From the NCBI GenBank assembly GCA_029556545.1, contig JAKQEQ010000065.1:1-48616 (forward strand): a stretch of 48,616 nucleotides of DNA, read 5' to 3'. The notes beneath the pieces were generated by a model. That model was given only the letters and a program-made list of their open reading frames with translations. It was not told the DNA's origin and did no database searches. This DNA is from Candidatus Hydrogenedentota bacterium (GTDB lineage Bacteria > Hydrogenedentota > Hydrogenedentia > Hydrogenedentales > JAGMZX01). The position numbers were made by a program, and so were the translations under genes. Every line of letters starts with the position of its first letter. Position 1 is the stretch's first letter. Positions 20,660 to 30,254 of this stretch are shown here, piece by piece.

Positions 20660-21145
20660 ATGGCCAAACCAAGACGGTCCTCCATCAGTCGCGAGTTGGA
20701 ACTCGAACACCCCATCGAGGATATACGGCACGAAGCCGTGCTGAACGTTATCCGCACGGCGAACGTGTTGTCCCTGCAGGGGGCCGCGCTATTTCGGCGG
20801 TTCGGACTGACGGAAGCCCAGTTCAACGTGCTGTTCGCGCTGAAATATAAGAAGCAGGCGTGGACGCAGTCGGACCTCGGCAAGCGGCTTGTGGTGACGC
20901 GGGCCAGCATTACGTCGGTGTTGGACAAGCTGGAGCGGAAGAAGCTGGTGCTGCGCGCGTCCGTACCCGGCAACCGCCGCATCCACCACGTCGAATTGAC
21001 GGCGAAGGGCCGCGTCCTGGTGGATGAAGTGGAGGCCGTGTACCGCGCCAGCATTCACCGGGCGCTGGCGGCGTTTTCGGAGGCGCAATGCCGCCGGTTG
21101 ATCGGCGGCCTGGAGCGGCTGCGCGAAGGCGCGGCGCGGCTCTGA
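20660..21145 (+). CDS. MarR-family transcriptional regulator
   Basis: The protein has 161 residues. The winged-helix core is clear: LTEAQFNVLFALKYKKQAWTQ, DLGKRLVVTRASITSVLDKLE (recognition helix) and the wing LVLRASVPGNRRIHHVELTAKG. MarR proteins bind DNA as dimers and often respond to small aromatic or lipid-like ligands. It is 56 bases upstream of the large acyl-lipid fusion gene on the same strand, so it probably regulates that gene and itself. An alternative start at 20633 would add nine residues; 20660 is preferred on family length. Confidence 0.88.
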   Translation: MAKPRRSSISRELELEHPIEDIRHEAVLNVIRTANVLSLQGAALFRRFGLTEAQFNVLFALKYKKQAWTQSDLGKRLVVTRASITSVLDKLERKKLVLRASVPGNRRIHHVELTAKGRVLVDEVEAVYRASIHRALAAFSEAQCRRLIGGLERLREGAARL

Positions 21146-21201
21146 AGTCTCGAGAGGCATCGAGAAGGCCCGGAGGTGTCCGGGTCGGAGGAAACGCAAG
21201 C

Positions 21202-24200
21202 ATGGAAAGCGTACAGCGTGCCCACGGGCCGAGCGGCGGCCAGTTCAACCGCGGCGGTTTCTGGGCGCTAATCGTCACGCAGTTTCAGGGCGCGTTCAAC
21301 GACAATCTGTATCAGTTCGTGATCATCTTCTTTCTGTTGTCGCTGGCGACCTCGACGCCGGTCGAGGCGACCGACTGGTACGGGAAGCTGGTGGGTCTGT
21401 TCGGCACGAAAGACTTCGTCTACGCCTTCGCGTCGTTCATATTCGCGGTGCCGTTCATCATATTTCCGGCGCTATTCGGGGCGCTTGCGGACCGGTACAG
21501 CAAGCAGCGGGTGGCGTTGGCGACGAAGTATCTGGAAATCGGCATCATGGCGCTGGGCGGTCTGGCATTCGTGAGCGGCCAACCGGCGTTCTGCTGGTTT
21601 GTCCTCTTTTGTATGGCCACGCAGAGCGCCATTTTCAGTCCGGCCAAGTACGGGATCATTCCGGAGATTATGCCGGAGCCGCGGCTGTCCTGGGCGAACG
21701 GCATTCTGCAAATGGGGACCATCATCGCCATCATCGCGGGGACCGGGATGGCGGGCGCGATATCGGACGTGTTCCGGGGCCGTACGTACGTCGTATCGCT
21801 GATCCTGGTGGTGCTTTCCGTTCTCGGCACGGTCTCGGCGCACTTTATCACGAAGCCGCCGGCCGCCAATCCGTCGCAGCGGATTCCGAAGAACCCGCTG
21901 CTTCCGTGGGCGGGTATGGGCCGGTACTTTCGCGCCATCTGGAGCGAACGTCTCCTGTTCAACGTGGTCCTCGGGTACGTGTACTTCTGGTTCGGCGGCG
22001 CGCTGGTGCGTCAGAGCGTGCTCAAGTTCGGCAATTCGTCGCTGGCGCTCTCGGATGCGATGACGGGCTACCTCGTGGCGATGATGGGCATCGGCATCGG
22101 TGTGGGCGCGGTCTCGGCGGGGTATCTGTCGCGCGAGAAGATCGAGACGGGCATCGTGCCGGTCGGGGCGATCGGCATGGGGTTTTTCTCGCTGATCCTT
22201 GCGGTGACGGGATGGAGTCTGGGCGACACGGGCGGGTTCGATGCGGCGTCGGCGGGTATCGCGATTAGCGGGGTCATGTACGTTTTTGTCATGGTCGTGA
22301 TGTTCTGTTTGGGTTTCTTCGCGGGGTTCTTCGACGTGCCGTTGGCCGCGGCGATTCAGGCGCGCGCGCCGCTGGACATCCGCGGCGGGGTGATCGCCAC
22401 GACGAACATGCTGACTTTTGTGGGTATTGCTTTCGCGAGCATTCTTTTCTACGGTCTGAGCGTCGCGGGTCTCAGCCCGAGCGGCATCTTCTTCGTTTGC
22501 GCACTCATGTCCGCGGGAATGGGCCTGTACATCTGTTTCCGTATACCGTCCATTCTGCTTCGGGCTGTGCTCTGGTTGCTCGCGAACAGCCTTTACCGCA
22601 TCCGTGTGCTTGGGCGGGACAATGTACCGGAGCAAGGCGGGGCGCTGCTGGCCGCGAACCATTTGTCCTTCCTGGACGCGCTGGCGTTGATGGCGTCCAC
22701 GGACCGCGACATTCACTTTCTCATGGGAAAAGAGGTCTATGAGGCCCCGGTTATCCGGCGTCTGGCGCGCCTGCTCAACATCGTTGCTCTCGATCCCCAC
22801 GGCTCGGACGCGCACGTGCGGGAAACGATGGCCGCCATGCGGCGCCTTGTGGCGGCGGGCGAGGTGGTTTGCGTTCCCGTCGAGTGGCGCTTCGCGCGGG
22901 ACGGCGTGATCATGCCGTATCACGACGATTATCGGGCGATCCTGGGCGAAGTGGAAGCGCCTATCGTGCCCGTGCATCTCTCGCATCTTTGGGGAGCAAT
23001 CTACAGCATGGAGAACGGGCGCTTTCAAGCGATTCGCCCGCCGCGGATTCCCCACAACATCATGGTGCACTACGGTCCCGAAGCGCCCCGCACGGCGGCG
23101 GCCGTCGATATTCGAACGGCTATCCAGCGGCTGGGCACGGAATCGTACACGCGACGCCCCCTGGCGCATACGCTGTTGCATCGGGGCTTCATCAAGGTGG
23201 CGCGCCAGCATAAGCGCCGCCTGGCGATCGCGGACGCCGTCACGGGCGAACTCAGCTTCTTCAAGACGCTGGTGGGGAGCATCGTGTTCGCGCGCAAGCT
23301 GCGCCGTATCCTCGATGATCAGCCGATGGTCGGCGTGCTGGTGCCGCCGTCCGTTGGCGGCGCGCTCACGAACATCGCGCTCCAGATCATGGGTCGCGTG
23401 CCCGTCAACTTGAATTACTCCGCGTCGAAGGAAGCGATGGCTTCCGCGGCGCGCCAGTGCGGCATTACGCAGGCGCTCACGTCGAAGCGGTTCCTCGAAC
23501 GGCTGCCGCTCGAAGTGCCTGGCGAGGCCATCTACCTTGAGGATATTCGCGCAACGATCACCGCCATGGACCGCATTGTGGGCATGCTGTACGCGCTGTT
23601 CGCGCCCGCGTGGCTGATCGAGCGCGCCGCGGGATCGCCGCGCGGGCGGACGCCCGACGATCTGGCCACCATCATCTTTTCGAGCGGCAGCGAGGGTGAG
23701 CCGAAAGGGGTCATGCTCACGCAACGCAACATTTTGTCGAACATCGAGGCGGGTCTCGAAACCTTCCCGCACGGTCCGCACGACCGCATGATGGCGTTCC
23801 TGCCGTTCTTCCATTCCTTCGGCTTCACGGTCGCGCTCTGGCTGATGCTTCACTCGCGCTGCGGGGTCGTGTACCACGCGAACCCGCTCGAACCGCGCGT
23901 CATCGGCGGGCTCGTGCACAAGTACGAATGCACGTTTCTCGTGGGCACGCCCACGTTCCTTCACGGCTTTATTCGCCGTTGCGACGCGGAACAACTCAAG
24001 AGCCTGTCGTGGGTGGTCTGCGGCGCGGAGAAGCTGCCCGAGCGCATTCGCGAGGCGTACCGGGAGAAATTCGGCACGACCCCGATGGAGGGATACGGCT
24101 GCACGGAGTGCGCGCCCGCGGTATCGACGAATACGCCGGATTACGAATCGCCGGGGTTCTTCGCGCGCGGGGTGAAGCACGGGAGCATCGGTCGTCCGTT

Positions 24201-24744
24201 GCCCGGACTGAGCATCCGCATCGTGGACCCGGAGACGGGCGCGGACCTGCCGCCCGGCGAGGCGGGGCTCATGCTCGTGAAGGGCGTCAATATCATGAAG
24301 GGCTACCTGGGCATGCCCGAGAAGACCGCCGCCGTGCTGCGCGACGGCTGGTATGAGACGGGGGACATCGCGTCGGTGGACGAGGACGGCTTCATCACGA
24401 TCACGGACCGGCTGGCGCGGTTCAGCAAGATTGGCGGCGAGATGGTTCCGCACGCGAAGATCGAGGACACGCTGCACCAGTTGCTCGAACTTACGGAGCA
24501 GGCGATCGCGGTGACGAGTCTCGCGGACCCCCGCAAGGGCGAGCGCCTGGTGGTGTTGCACACGCTCGATGAGTCCCAGGTCGGGGAACTTCTGGCGAAA
24601 CTGCCGGAGTCGGGCTTGCCGAACCTGTGGCGGCCCCGCCCGAGCGCGTTTCACCGGATAGACGCACTGCCAGTCCTCGGCACCGGCAAGATGGACATCC
24701 GGGGCATCCGCGCCATGGCCCAGGAACTCGATACCGAGGAGTGA
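21202..24744 (+). CDS. LplT-like transporter / PlsC acyltransferase / acyl-activating enzyme fusion (Aas-like)
   Basis: The protein has 1180 residues in three parts. Residues ~15-455 form a 12-span MFS module resembling the lysophospholipid flippase LplT (FQGAFNDNLYQFVIIFF). Residues ~460-660 form a PlsC-type acyltransferase with the HX4D motif His487-Asp492. Residues ~700-1180 form an AMP-forming acyl-activating domain with IIFSSGSEGEPKG (824-836), YGCTE (965-969) and YETGDIASVDEDGF. In E. coli lplT and aas are separate genes that import and re-acylate lysophospholipids; here they are one chain. GGAGG lies 11 bases before ATG 21202. No acyl carrier domain is seen. Likely role: membrane phospholipid repair, under the adjacent MarR regulator. 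Confidence 0.92.
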   Translation: MESVQRAHGPSGGQFNRGGFWALIVTQFQGAFNDNLYQFVIIFFLLSLATSTPVEATDWYGKLVGLFGTKDFVYAFASFIFAVPFIIFPALFGALADRYSKQRVALATKYLEIGIMALGGLAFVSGQPAFCWFVLFCMATQSAIFSPAKYGIIPEIMPEPRLSWANGILQMGTIIAIIAGTGMAGAISDVFRGRTYVVSLILVVLSVLGTVSAHFITKPPAANPSQRIPKNPLLPWAGMGRYFRAIWSERLLFNVVLGYVYFWFGGALVRQSVLKFGNSSLALSDAMTGYLVAMMGIGIGVGAVSAGYLSREKIETGIVPVGAIGMGFFSLILAVTGWSLGDTGGFDAASAGIAISGVMYVFVMVVMFCLGFFAGFFDVPLAAAIQARAPLDIRGGVIATTNMLTFVGIAFASILFYGLSVAGLSPSGIFFVCALMSAGMGLYICFRIPSILLRAVLWLLANSLYRIRVLGRDNVPEQGGALLAANHLSFLDALALMASTDRDIHFLMGKEVYEAPVIRRLARLLNIVALDPHGSDAHVRETMAAMRRLVAAGEVVCVPVEWRFARDGVIMPYHDDYRAILGEVEAPIVPVHLSHLWGAIYSMENGRFQAIRPPRIPHNIMVHYGPEAPRTAAAVDIRTAIQRLGTESYTRRPLAHTLLHRGFIKVARQHKRRLAIADAVTGELSFFKTLVGSIVFARKLRRILDDQPMVGVLVPPSVGGALTNIALQIMGRVPVNLNYSASKEAMASAARQCGITQALTSKRFLERLPLEVPGEAIYLEDIRATITAMDRIVGMLYALFAPAWLIERAAGSPRGRTPDDLATIIFSSGSEGEPKGVMLTQRNILSNIEAGLETFPHGPHDRMMAFLPFFHSFGFTVALWLMLHSRCGVVYHANPLEPRVIGGLVHKYECTFLVGTPTFLHGFIRRCDAEQLKSLSWVVCGAEKLPERIREAYREKFGTTPMEGYGCTECAPAVSTNTPDYESPGFFARGVKHGSIGRPLPGLSIRIVDPETGADLPPGEAGLMLVKGVNIMKGYLGMPEKTAAVLRDGWYETGDIASVDEDGFITITDRLARFSKIGGEMVPHAKIEDTLHQLLELTEQAIAVTSLADPRKGERLVVLHTLDESQVGELLAKLPESGLPNLWRPRPSAFHRIDALPVLGTGKMDIRGIRAMAQELDTEE

Positions 24745-25637: not shown

Positions 25638-25667
25638 TTGACACGCCGCGAGGCGCGGGCATATACT
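25638..25667 (+). promoter_or_regulatory. Sigma70-type promoter of the riboswitch transcript
   Basis: TTGACA (25638-25643) and TATACT (25662-25667) are separated by 18 bp. The -35 box is a perfect consensus and the -10 box matches at five of six positions. Predicted transcription start is near 25674, just before the first riboswitch helix. It is the best promoter match I noticed in the window. Confidence 0.8.
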
Positions 25668-25674
25668 GCGCCCG

Positions 25675-25911
25675 AACGTAAACGCCGCACGTGGCGGCGC
25701 CGGGATTCGGCGCGGGGAAGCACGGTGAGAGTCCGTCGCAGACGCGCTGCTGTAACCGGGGACGAAAGCCACAGTTTAGCCACTGTCCGCAAAGGAGCGG
25801 GCATCTTGGCCCCGAAGCGTGGGGCGGGACGCCCCGCCTCCTGAGGATGGGAAGGCGTGGCGAGTAGGGTGATCCGGGAGCCAGAAGACCTGACCGAGAC
25901 CCGATGCGTTC
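25675..25911 (+). ncRNA. Cobalamin riboswitch
   Basis: The conserved cobalamin aptamer blocks appear in order: GGGGAAGCACGGTGAGAGTCC (25713 on), GCTGCTGTAACC, GAAAGCCAC, a GCCACTGT element, GGGAAGGCG, and the B12 box GAGCCAGAAGACCTG at 25878-25892. A strong variable hairpin (GGGGCGGGACGCCCC) sits between the GCCACTGT and GGGAAGG elements, where insertions are usual. Such RNAs bind adenosyl- or related cobalamins and turn off the downstream gene when B12 is plentiful. It is on the strand of, and 120 bases upstream of, the secreted protein at 26031. Confidence 0.93.
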
Positions 25912-25937
25912 TTGCAGCAACTCGCGGAAAAGTTGCC

Positions 25938-26027
25938 GCAGGAAAAGGGTCTTTTCCTTCCTGCCTGCTTTTCCCCCAGTAACGGTGTCTGGGCGTGTAT
26001 GCGCCCGCAACATTGGAAAGGGGAAAA
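25938..26027 (+). promoter_or_regulatory. Riboswitch expression platform, ribosome-site sequestration
   Basis: GGAAAAG (25941-25947) can pair with CTTTTCC (25951-25957). The next CTTTTCCCC (25968-25976) can instead pair with GGGGAAAA (26020-26027), which holds the ribosome site of the gene at 26031. A small stem GGGCG/CGCCC (25991-26006) lies inside that loop. GGAAAAG can also reach the later CTTTTCC copy, so at least two exclusive folds exist. The lack of a long U run argues for translational control. This is a pairing proposal by eye. Confidence 0.55.
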
Positions 26028-26030
26028 CCC

Positions 26031-27401
26031 ATGACCTTGCTTGCTTCCTCGCGCAAACCATTCTTTTTTCTCGCGGTATTTGTCATCCTCGCCGCCGGAA
26101 CGGCCTGGGCGGTGACTATAACGCCGCTGGCGGACTTCCCGGCGCCCGCGCCCGGCGCATATGTCGTGACCGGCGCCGCTTTGGGCGATGGGCGTTACCT
26201 GATCTGGGACGGGGACGCGGTGTATATCGAATCGGCGACCGGGACGGGCGGGTTCGCGCCTGTGGCGGACGGCTACGCCGGCGACCCGGGGTTTGCGGCC
26301 GTGGCGGAAGACGGCCATACGGCGGTGCTCGGCGGGGGATTCAACGGCAATTTGTATCTCTTTGACGCCGACCAGCCCGAGGACTTTGCGCCGGAAAGCA
26401 TTGTCGCGAACCGACCGCACTTTACCGGGGCTTTCCTGACGGACACCTTGGTGATCGTGGACGCGGCCAAGCCCGATTTCTCGGGGAGTGAACTGGCCAT
26501 TGTCGATCTTGCGGCGAAAGGGGGGAGCGCGGTGGCCGTCGTGACGAAATCCGCGCGTTACGCCTTGCCGAAGACGGTGGTAATTGAAAAGCCGCCCTTT
26601 TCCTATTCAAGCGCGATTACCGTGGATACGGTTCGCGGCGTGGTCTATGCGATGGACGGCAACACGCGCGAATTGCGGCAGTTTTCCGTGAGCGCGATCA
26701 TCGCGGCGTACACGGGAAGCAACGTGCTCGACTGGGAGACGGACGGCGCGCTGGTGGGGCAGGCAGGGATGTACTACACGGGCGGGGTGAGCGGGATCAC
26801 GTCAGAAGGTTTTCTCGTTATCGGCGGCTCGGAGGGCTACCTGCTGCCGGGCGGCATTCAATTCGTCGCGCTCGTCTCCGGCGACGTCGTGGCGCTGATC
26901 GACCCGACGGGCAACCGGGATTTCTATTCCGTCGTCTTCAATCCGGTGGCGCAGACGCTGCTGGCGCTGGTCGAGGGCGCGTGGCAGGGGCAAGCGTACG
27001 CGGTGGATTTGGCCTGTGTGAACAATCCCGAGGGCTGCGCGCAGCCTCACGGCGGGCTCTACCGCGTCGGCGACGAACTGTGCCTGAGCGTTCCGTGCCC
27101 TGTGTCGTTGGGCAGCGGCTTCGACTGGCGAAAGAACGGCGCGCCGTTGAGCGACGGCGGGCGGGTCAGCGGCGTGACTACGCGGACGTTGCGGGTCATG
27201 GCGCTGCAAGTGGCGGACAGCGGAACGTATACGTGTGCCTACGAAGACGGCGCGAAGGCGCAACAGACCTTCGTGGCGCAGGTTCAGGTGGGCCAGGCGG
27301 TGCCAGTCGCCAATGGTGCGCTCTTGATCAGCCTCACTGTGTTGCTCGGCCTCTCGACCGCTGTGGCAGCGAAGCTGCTCAGTCGATCCACTACTCGGTA
27401 A
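26031..27401 (+). CDS. Secreted propeller/Ig protein under cobalamin riboswitch control
   Basis: The protein has 456 residues. A signal peptide (KPFFFLAVFVILAAGTAWA) is followed by ~300 residues of repeated beta strands that look like a propeller (YLIWDGDAVYIES, NLYLFDADQPEDFAPES, VVYAMDGNTRELRQFS, VALIDPTGNRDFYSVVFNP). Next comes an Ig-like domain at ~335-425 with paired cysteines and the closing motif DSGTYTCAYEDG. The tail VPVANGALLISLTVLLG plus basic residues matches the anchor layout of the Ig protein at 2-3298. No known cobalamin-binding motif is seen. Control by B12 suggests a role in capturing or handling cobalamin or a corrinoid at the surface (inference). It overlaps the convergent L,D-transpeptidase gene by 11 bases. 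Confidence 0.82.
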   Translation: MTLLASSRKPFFFLAVFVILAAGTAWAVTITPLADFPAPAPGAYVVTGAALGDGRYLIWDGDAVYIESATGTGGFAPVADGYAGDPGFAAVAEDGHTAVLGGGFNGNLYLFDADQPEDFAPESIVANRPHFTGAFLTDTLVIVDAAKPDFSGSELAIVDLAAKGGSAVAVVTKSARYALPKTVVIEKPPFSYSSAITVDTVRGVVYAMDGNTRELRQFSVSAIIAAYTGSNVLDWETDGALVGQAGMYYTGGVSGITSEGFLVIGGSEGYLLPGGIQFVALVSGDVVALIDPTGNRDFYSVVFNPVAQTLLALVEGAWQGQAYAVDLACVNNPEGCAQPHGGLYRVGDELCLSVPCPVSLGSGFDWRKNGAPLSDGGRVSGVTTRTLRVMALQVADSGTYTCAYEDGAKAQQTFVAQVQVGQAVPVANGALLISLTVLLGLSTAVAAKLLSRSTTR

Positions 27402-28200: not shown

Positions 28201-30003
28201 CTATGTTGCGGAAATGACATAGAGCGCCTCGTCCGCCAGGAGGTTTGGCCAGATACGCCAGACGCCGCGGTTGCTCAGCGCGATTTCCTGTTCGACGCGG
28301 ATGTTGCGCTCGCGGCAGAAGGCGCGGAAGTCGCGAATGGAGAGGACGTGCCGGTTGGGCGAATCGTACCATGAGTAGGGCAGGCTGCGCGTGACCGGGG
28401 CGCGGCCGTTGATGAGCATCTTGGCGCGGACTTTCCAGTAGGAGAAGTTTGGGAAGCTGATGATGCACTTGCGTCCGACGCGCAGCATTTCGCGCAGCAC
28501 GAGATCGGGGTTCTCGATGACTTGGAGGGTCATGCTCAGGATGACCCAATCGAAACTTTGGTCGGGCAGCGCGCCGAGGCCCTTGTCCGCGTTGGCCTGG
28601 ATCACGGAGACGCCGCGTCGCACGCAGGAGATGACGTTGCCTTGGGCGAGTTCGATGCCGACGCCTTTCACGCTCCGCTTGCGGATGAGGTCGCACAGCA
28701 GGGCGCCGTCGCCGCAGCCGATATCGAGCACGCGGCTGCCCTCGTCGACGAGGTTGCAGATCATCTCATAGTCGACGCGATGGCCTTCATAGATGCTCGA
28801 AGACGCGGCGGCGGGCGGGCCCAGGTCCGTCTCGGAGGAATCGAGCGGTTCCGGCGCGCCGATTCGCTCGGGATGCAGGGTGTTTTCGAGAAATCCCGCG
28901 ACGAGCTTGGCGAGCACCTCGAATTCGAGGAGAAAGGCGTCGTGCCCGGCGTCGGTCTGGATGCAGCAGTAGGAAACGTCCTTCTCTTGCCGGGCGAGGG
29001 CGTAGACGATTTCCTCGGACTGATACGGCGGATAAAGCCAGTCGGAGGTGAAGGAAATTACGAGCATGCGCCCTTGCACGCGCTTCATGGCCTCGTCGAG
29101 GCTTCCGTAGCGCGCGGACACATCGAAGTAGTCCATCGCCTTCGTGATGTAGAGATAGGTATTCGGGTCGAAGCGATTGACGAACTGCTCGCCCTGATAG
29201 TCGAGATAGGTCTCGACCGAGAATTCGCTCTGGAAGTCGTAGCTGAGCCGGTCGCGATGTCGCAGCCGCCGCCCGAACTTGTTTCGCATGGACATATCCG
29301 AAAGATAGGTGATGTGCGCGAGCATGCGCGCGATGGCGAGTCCCTTGGACGGCATATCGGCGTCGTAGTAGTCGCCGTCGCGGAAACGGGGGTCGCCCAT
29401 GATTGCGTTGCGGCCCACGGCGTCGAAGGCGATTTGCTGCGCGCCGCTGAAGTGGGTGGTGGCGATGGGTATGGCGGAGCGGACCATCTCGGGATAGCGG
29501 GTAGCCCACTCGAGGGCCTGCATGCCGCCCATGGAGCCGCCGGTGACGGTGAGGAGTTTCTCGATTCCGAGATGACGCAGGAGTTCCCGCTGCGTCTGCA
29601 CCATGTCGCCGACGGTGATGATGGGAAAACTCAGGCCGTAAGGCTGACCCGTGGCCGGATTGATGGACGAGGGTCCGGTCGACCCCATACAGCCGCCGAT
29701 GACGTTTGAGCAGATGACGAAATACTTGTTGGTGTCGAAGCCCTTGCCTGGCCCGACCATTGAATCCCACCATCCCGGCTTCGCGTCCTGGGCGTGGTGG
29801 ATTCCGGCGACGTGGGCGTCCCCCGAGAGCGCGTGAACGATGAGAATGGCGTTCGAGCGGTCTTCGTTGAGTTCACCGTACGTTTCGTAGGCGAGCGTGA
29901 TCGGGCCGAGTTTCTGCCCGCCCTCGAGGACCATTTCGTTCGGCGGTTCCGCGAAGGTGAAGTATTTTGTGTAGACAATACCGACGGAGGTCTCAACCGA
30001 CAT
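28201..30003 (-). CDS. metXW: MetX-MetW fusion: homoserine O-acyltransferase plus methyltransferase-like MetW
   Basis: The protein has 600 residues. Residues 1-380 are an alpha/beta hydrolase of the homoserine O-acyltransferase family. The nucleophile is Ser157 (GGSMGGMQ), with Asp321 (SFTSDWLYPP) and His354 (DAGHDAF) completing the triad; GGCMGSTGPSS is a family hallmark. Residues ~405-600 are MetW, with the SAM-type motif VLDIGCGDG (425-433) and SFPNFSYWKVR. MetX activates homoserine for methionine synthesis and MetW assists in many bacteria where the two are separate adjacent genes. The start at 30003 has AGAGGA upstream and gives the normal MetX N-terminus. Acetyl versus succinyl specificity cannot be read safely. 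Confidence 0.93.
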   Translation of the reverse strand: MSVETSVGIVYTKYFTFAEPPNEMVLEGGQKLGPITLAYETYGELNEDRSNAILIVHALSGDAHVAGIHHAQDAKPGWWDSMVGPGKGFDTNKYFVICSNVIGGCMGSTGPSSINPATGQPYGLSFPIITVGDMVQTQRELLRHLGIEKLLTVTGGSMGGMQALEWATRYPEMVRSAIPIATTHFSGAQQIAFDAVGRNAIMGDPRFRDGDYYDADMPSKGLAIARMLAHITYLSDMSMRNKFGRRLRHRDRLSYDFQSEFSVETYLDYQGEQFVNRFDPNTYLYITKAMDYFDVSARYGSLDEAMKRVQGRMLVISFTSDWLYPPYQSEEIVYALARQEKDVSYCCIQTDAGHDAFLLEFEVLAKLVAGFLENTLHPERIGAPEPLDSSETDLGPPAAASSSIYEGHRVDYEMICNLVDEGSRVLDIGCGDGALLCDLIRKRSVKGVGIELAQGNVISCVRRGVSVIQANADKGLGALPDQSFDWVILSMTLQVIENPDLVLREMLRVGRKCIISFPNFSYWKVRAKMLINGRAPVTRSLPYSWYDSPNRHVLSIRDFRAFCRERNIRVEQEIALSNRGVWRIWPNLLADEALYVISAT

Positions 30004-30254
30004 CCGGGCGCATCCTCTGTTTACGCTGAACACGGCGCGGGCGGGATACCCATGCCACGGGATCAAAAAGGCGGCGTCGTTCACGTGTCGGGAACTGCGC
30101 GCCACCTCGATGCCGCCCCGATCATATCACCTGGCATGCGCACGGGCCAAGATCGGCGCCTTGTGCGGGCGGCGCGCTTGCGGTATGCTCGTTGCGTTTG
30201 CGGGAGTATCAGCGGTCTTACCCTGGATGAAACAGCGCGAAGGGGACATACGCC

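Follow-up and report, generated by a model that had tools for sequence, protein, structure and literature searches.

The window analysed here is a 48,616-nucleotide stretch from a Candidatus Hydrogenedentota MAG (6.1 Mb, 96% complete), and at positions 25638-27401 of its forward strand it carries a promoter, a cobalamin riboswitch and a 456-codon gene. The upstream neighbour of this gene encodes an Fe/Mn superoxide dismutase and the downstream neighbour a YkuD L,D-transpeptidase; both lie on the opposite strand, which leaves the gene by itself behind its riboswitch. The features of the locus are as follows.

25638-25667, + strand: sigma-70-like promoter, TTGACA-18-TATACT, 11 of 12 consensus bases
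25715-25890, + strand: cobalamin riboswitch aptamer (Rfam RF00174; 67.2 bits, E 1.5e-14)
25914-25939, + strand: putative P13-like regulatory hairpin with an invariant CGCG loop (25-locus alignment)
25968-25976, + strand: CU-rich tract CUUUUCCCC, candidate anti-Shine-Dalgarno sequence (sequence and folds)
26015-26027, + strand: ribosome-binding region GGAAAGGGGAAAA (sequence)
26031-27401, + strand: gene for a secreted, membrane-tailed propeller protein of 456 amino acids (ORF list with the start moved to the ATG at 26031; family alignment)
26031-26108, + strand: signal peptide without a lipobox cysteine (sequence and hydropathy; helix 9-21 in the model)
26112-27011, + strand: predicted beta-propeller domain, residues about 28-327 (AlphaFold2 model, Foldseek propeller matches)
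27048-27284, + strand: Ig-like domain, residues about 340-418 (weak Pfam Ig matches, E 2e-4, below cut-off)
27309-27395, + strand: C-terminal VPxx-TM-basic tail (terminal helix 427-455 in the model; tails alike in other proteins of the same genome)

Two composite frames lie elsewhere in the window: near the B12-switched gene, one ORF (28201-30105, - strand) is a fusion of a homoserine O-acetyltransferase-like alpha/beta hydrolase with MetW, and a 1218-aa ORF (21088-24744, + strand) joins an MFS transporter, an acyltransferase and an AMP-binding ligase.

The initial annotation had described a near-consensus promoter and a complete cobalamin aptamer upstream of the gene, and both descriptions hold. 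A single promoter-type match is present in the real sequence, against 0.4 +/- 0.7 in shuffled sequences. The aptamer exceeds the RF00174 gathering score of 31.5 and so qualifies as a member of that family, and chance does not explain it, since only two RF00174 matches occur in the entire 6.1 Mb genome. Its match spans model positions 46-168 of 189; in a genome of the same genus (G001) the match at the corresponding site runs over the whole model, 1-189, and the window aptamer is therefore complete or nearly so. The conserved core is that of an RF00174 riboswitch; the regulated gene belongs to a family that has no Pfam or NCBIfam name, and the expression platform looks translational.

Downstream of the core, where the riboswitch class has its regulatory hairpin, the P13-like hairpin has two-sided changes in 7 of 9 pairs over 25 aligned loci, and 87.9% of its cells are paired compared with 80.3% after shuffling, with all shifted controls worse. 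The hairpin, with its CGCG loop, fits a P13/L13 element; in known cobalamin riboswitches L13 pairs with L5. By sequence and folding, the CU-rich tract CUUUUCCCC could pair with the hairpin, through GGAAAAG, or alternatively with the ribosome site, through GGGGAAAA. Complementarity between leader and ribosome site is greater than in shuffles over the 25 loci (Fisher p 5e-7, with loci treated as unrelated) and fails to reach significance when the window is taken by itself (p 0.24), so that an anti-Shine-Dalgarno role for this tract is suggested at most. A consensus scan revealed no transcription terminator, which leads us to prefer translational control, and repression of translation by B12 is the mode that we consider probable.

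The best start of the gene is the ATG at 26031, with GGAAAGGGG upstream of it, and the stop is at 27401. The signal peptide, propeller-like repeats, Ig-like domain and anchor-type tail that had been proposed for the product are all borne out by sequence, hydropathy, Pfam and AlphaFold2. Residues about 10-30 are hydrophobic, as is a second stretch at residues 423-450. The AlphaFold2 model (25 sequences) has a mean pLDDT of 81 over the whole chain, with most core blocks at 82-98; the strand count of the model indicates that the propeller probably has six blades, and Foldseek searches with it returned propellers of many generic kinds, including enzymes such as lactonases. The core is acidic (33 D/E against 12 K/R) and matches no propeller family in Pfam or NCBIfam; the lone exception is one family member with a marginal NHL-repeat match (E 0.0086). 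The Ig region is common to other large proteins of the window genome, with up to 54% identity confined to that region. At least five further large proteins of this genome (L004, L005, L006, L007, L008) contain this Ig module; the majority carry a VPxxG-type tail, in some cases behind a long EGEGEG linker. We considered sorting of the window protein by a PEP-CTERM/exosortase system and rejected it for this genome, as NCBIfam CTERM models do not match the protein and a PF09721 search found no exosortase in the genome.

A search of 60 related genomes placed the propeller in 26 of them, and a wider profile search raised this to 31 of 68 Hydrogenedentota genomes. In named genomes, a search of contigs with a single sequence gave no match and one with a 10-row alignment did; the relatives it brought up are mostly titled Candidatus Hydrogenedentota or Hydrogenedentes, with four titled only "uncultured bacterium" and one Nitrospiraceae, and tblastn against plasmids with the propeller or with the BtuH domain (below) gave no match. 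In 26 loci from the 60 relatives, the propeller gene is preceded at a distance of 100-320 bases by a riboswitch of the same orientation, and the wider search added five more loci with a riboswitch (L217, L218, L219, L220 and L223, the last counted as paired though a contig end cuts its aptamer). Thus a cobalamin riboswitch lies directly upstream of the propeller gene in 31 of the 32 loci with readable upstream DNA, and the pairing seen in the window is kept in relatives. The sole exception is a divergent propeller copy without a riboswitch (L222); L221, which runs off its contig, was left out of the count. Throughout the family alignment the propeller core is constant, while the Ig domain is variable and is absent in many members.

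We sorted 80 riboswitch loci of the phylum by the genes behind the switch. The propeller lies behind 26 of them, a protein that starts with a DPWAD domain behind 25, an H-X9-DG pseudopilin behind nine, another propeller-Ig-anchor protein behind eight (all in genome family f10) and BtuF-BtuD-BtuC behind five (L081, L144, L148, L153 and L156); one has a PEP-CTERM protein with a pseudopilin, one a tandem riboswitch with a pseudopilin, four are cut by contig ends and one is unclear. In seven loci (L087, L092, L094, L096, L097, L098 and L099) a propeller gene and a DPWAD gene stand one after the other behind a single riboswitch. A DPWAD-domain profile matched only two PDB chains, 8blw_B (E 1.9e-18) and 7biz_A (E 7.2e-15), which are the BtuH part of BtuG1 and BtuH2, respectively, and 8blw and 7biz were also the only Foldseek matches below E 0.001 for a DPWAD-domain model of moderate confidence (mean pLDDT 66). 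By profile and predicted fold, then, the DPWAD domain is the BtuH B12-binding domain. The second and only other riboswitch of the window genome controls a protein (L073:8659-11733) with such a domain at its N-terminus, fused to a pseudopilin. Since the co-regulated genes include BtuH-domain proteins, the regulatory neighbours point to B12 capture; the switch also stands beside other genes, mostly ones linked to B12 capture or transport, so the uncoupling of switch and protein that the initial annotation would have taken as contrary evidence is not what the relatives show.

Several arrangements among these loci merit description. In L073:8659-11733, L087, L105, L107 and L108 the BtuH-domain protein runs in frame into an H-X9-DG-type pseudopilin, with the methylation motif in mid-protein, and in L096 and L104 the two genes are separate and overlap. 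Two tandem cobalamin riboswitches precede the pseudopilin gene of L142 (G048:C11:52302-52814), and the PEP-CTERM protein behind the riboswitch of L111 does not match the BtuH profile. In genome family f10, which is without the window's propeller, the riboswitch controls another propeller-Ig-anchor family, A4 (L130, L132, L135, L137, L139, L140, L166 and L167). When the profiles of the two propeller families are compared, they align only in part (probability 88, E 3.2e-6), so a common origin is possible; immunoglobulin-type chains are among the PDB matches listed for the f10 profile, via its Ig domain.

CbiC catalyses a step of corrin-ring synthesis. It is absent in all 40 genomes searched, compared with 7 positives among 14 control genomes, and B12-binding domains are present in 20 of the 20 genomes tested (in the window genome, within a 1244-aa open frame of MetH size); these bacteria thus appear to need B12 without synthesizing the corrin ring. 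Omp85 is present in 19 of 20 genomes, so an outer membrane exists, and the TonB-receptor plug is absent in the window genome, where neither PF07715 (plug) nor PF00593 (barrel) has a match, and in 31 of 40 genomes. Gaps in a single MAG might conceal a receptor, but this is hard to suppose for 31 of them. Where TonB receptors do occur in the phylum they are on contigs other than those with riboswitches, and among the 80 sorted loci no TonB receptor was recognised downstream of the switch. At G000:C145 the window genome has importer genes of its own that lack a riboswitch: an ABC ATPase frame flanked by the genes for a BtuF-like protein and a FecCD-type permease. A CbiX/SirB-like chelatase, identified by eye, is encoded near the genome's own BtuFDC-type operon (L191, 3116-3517, + strand).

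A close parallel is known from Bacteroides, where BtuG and BtuH are riboswitch-controlled B12 binders (PMC10404256, PMC8941943). There, positively charged corrinoids dock onto the negatively charged propeller face of BtuG2, and BtuG1 combines a propeller and a BtuH domain in one chain (PMC10404256). BtuH2 binds B12 and aids its transport; proteins of the BtuH type are located at the cell surface in Bacteroides, and homologues have also been noted in three Firmicutes (PMC8941943). Like BtuG (BtuG2, or the G domain of BtuG1/BtuGH, of Bacteroides thetaiotaomicron), the window protein is an exported, acidic, predicted beta-propeller under a cobalamin riboswitch and is associated with BtuH, which is fused to the propeller in BtuG1 and encoded by an adjacent gene or a second riboswitch locus in Hydrogenedentota. 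It differs in that it has a C-terminal membrane tail in place of a lipid anchor, there being no lipobox cysteine for a surface lipoprotein, in a strand count that suggests six blades rather than seven, and in having neither a BtuB partner nor a TonB-receptor plug in its genome. Moreover, a search of the PDB with the family profile (E up to 10) matched no BtuG or other solved B12 binder, and PF16819 matched none of 25 family members at E up to 0.01. Lacking sequence similarity, lipid anchor and BtuB partner, the window protein was not assigned as a BtuG. Nor is it itself a BtuH; the domain homologous to BtuH (7biz) is in the protein behind the second riboswitch, where, in contrast to BtuH, it is N-terminal, with more repeats and a membrane tail after it, and in Hydrogenedentota the BtuH-domain protein is often fused or adjacent to a pseudopilin. 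DUF4465 (BtuJ) proteins are B12-binding surface proteins known outside Bacteroidota (PMC13398666, PMC12751083); they too are secreted, and some have C-terminal sorting tails and lie near transport genes (PMC12751083, PMC13398666), but theirs is a jelly-roll fold, while the window protein is a predicted propeller without a DUF4465 match.

We consider it likely that the window protein captures corrinoids outside the cytoplasm in the manner of BtuG and is made only under B12 scarcity, in B12 auxotrophs without a recognisable BtuB. When cytoplasmic B12 is plentiful the riboswitch would fold and the P13-like hairpin form, and CUUUUCCCC would then pair with the ribosome site and block translation; under scarcity the protein would be made and exported by way of its signal peptide. 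The C-terminal tail would hold it in the membrane with the Ig domain as a spacer, and the propeller would bind cobamides and, with the BtuH-domain protein, pass them on to the BtuFDC importer. The direction of the switch and the hand-over to BtuFDC are, like corrinoid binding by the propeller, what we infer from this arrangement; exposure at the surface is suggested by other large proteins of this genome, which carry an Ig domain and tail of the same type. The initial annotation had proposed a surface protein that captures or handles corrinoids, and conservation of the riboswitch-protein pair, co-regulation with BtuH and BtuFDC and the use of B12 without CbiC all support that proposal, of which binding and an outward orientation are the conjectural parts.

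Several observations count against capture: the propeller has no sequence similarity to BtuG or any solved B12 binder; the Foldseek matches are generic propellers, and propellers are versatile folds; the tail could sit in the inner membrane and face the periplasm; the genome has no identified exosortase; the divergent copy in L222 is without a riboswitch; and the anti-Shine-Dalgarno pairing lacks significance in the window itself. The protein might instead be an adhesin made during B12 starvation, with the propeller, the Ig-like domain and the pseudopilins attaching the cell to B12-producing neighbours or particles and no corrinoid being bound. Propellers and Ig domains are frequent in adhesins, other proteins of the window genome that look surface-type have this Ig domain and tail too, and an H-X9-DG-type pseudopilin lies behind the same riboswitch in many relatives; however, the propeller core is constant while the Ig module is missing in many members, and the co-regulated partner bears the B12-binding BtuH domain, so we regard an adhesin as unlikely. 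It is also quite improbable, in our estimation, that the protein is an inner-membrane-anchored periplasmic factor that handles B12 beside BtuF as a chaperone or as a cobamide-trimming or -converting enzyme. A single C-terminal membrane helix with a basic end, no exosortase in the genome, no lipobox and the lactonase-type propeller enzymes among the fold matches would suit such a location, but similar tails occur on other large Ig-bearing proteins that look surface-type, and homologues of the BtuH partner are at the cell surface in Bacteroides (PMC8941943).

The pairing could, finally, reflect an unrelated B12-repressed envelope function, for instance a stand-in for a B12-dependent step. It is established that cobalamin riboswitches control B12-independent isozymes in other bacteria, but those known are cytoplasmic whereas the window protein is exported, and the genes co-regulated with it include B12 binders and importers; we find this reading very hard to credit. 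Returning to capture, we tentatively raise the doubtful idea of an outer-membrane B12 uptake route without BtuB or TonB, in which propeller and BtuH-domain proteins would capture corrinoids outside and the riboswitch-controlled pseudopilin, often fused to the BtuH-domain protein, would help the bound vitamin across the envelope to BtuFDC.

In the literature accessible to us, subscription papers being outside the search, we found no paper on cobalamin riboswitches in Hydrogenedentota, no title on B12 uptake among works naming both the phylum and cobalamin, and no link between B12 riboswitches and PEP-CTERM proteins. What is new is the propeller family with its strict riboswitch pairing, together with the BtuH partner, a pseudopilin regulated alongside them and the lack of TonB receptors. 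An unannotated protein family thereby gains a proposed function, and the findings indicate that riboswitch-controlled B12 capture of the propeller/BtuH type, so far found mainly in gut Bacteroidetes together with BtuB, is probably also present in an uncultured phylum whose genomes are mostly without TonB-dependent receptors. They also make testable the question of how a double-membrane auxotroph without BtuB imports a molecule as large as B12, a process in which the co-regulated pseudopilin may play a part.
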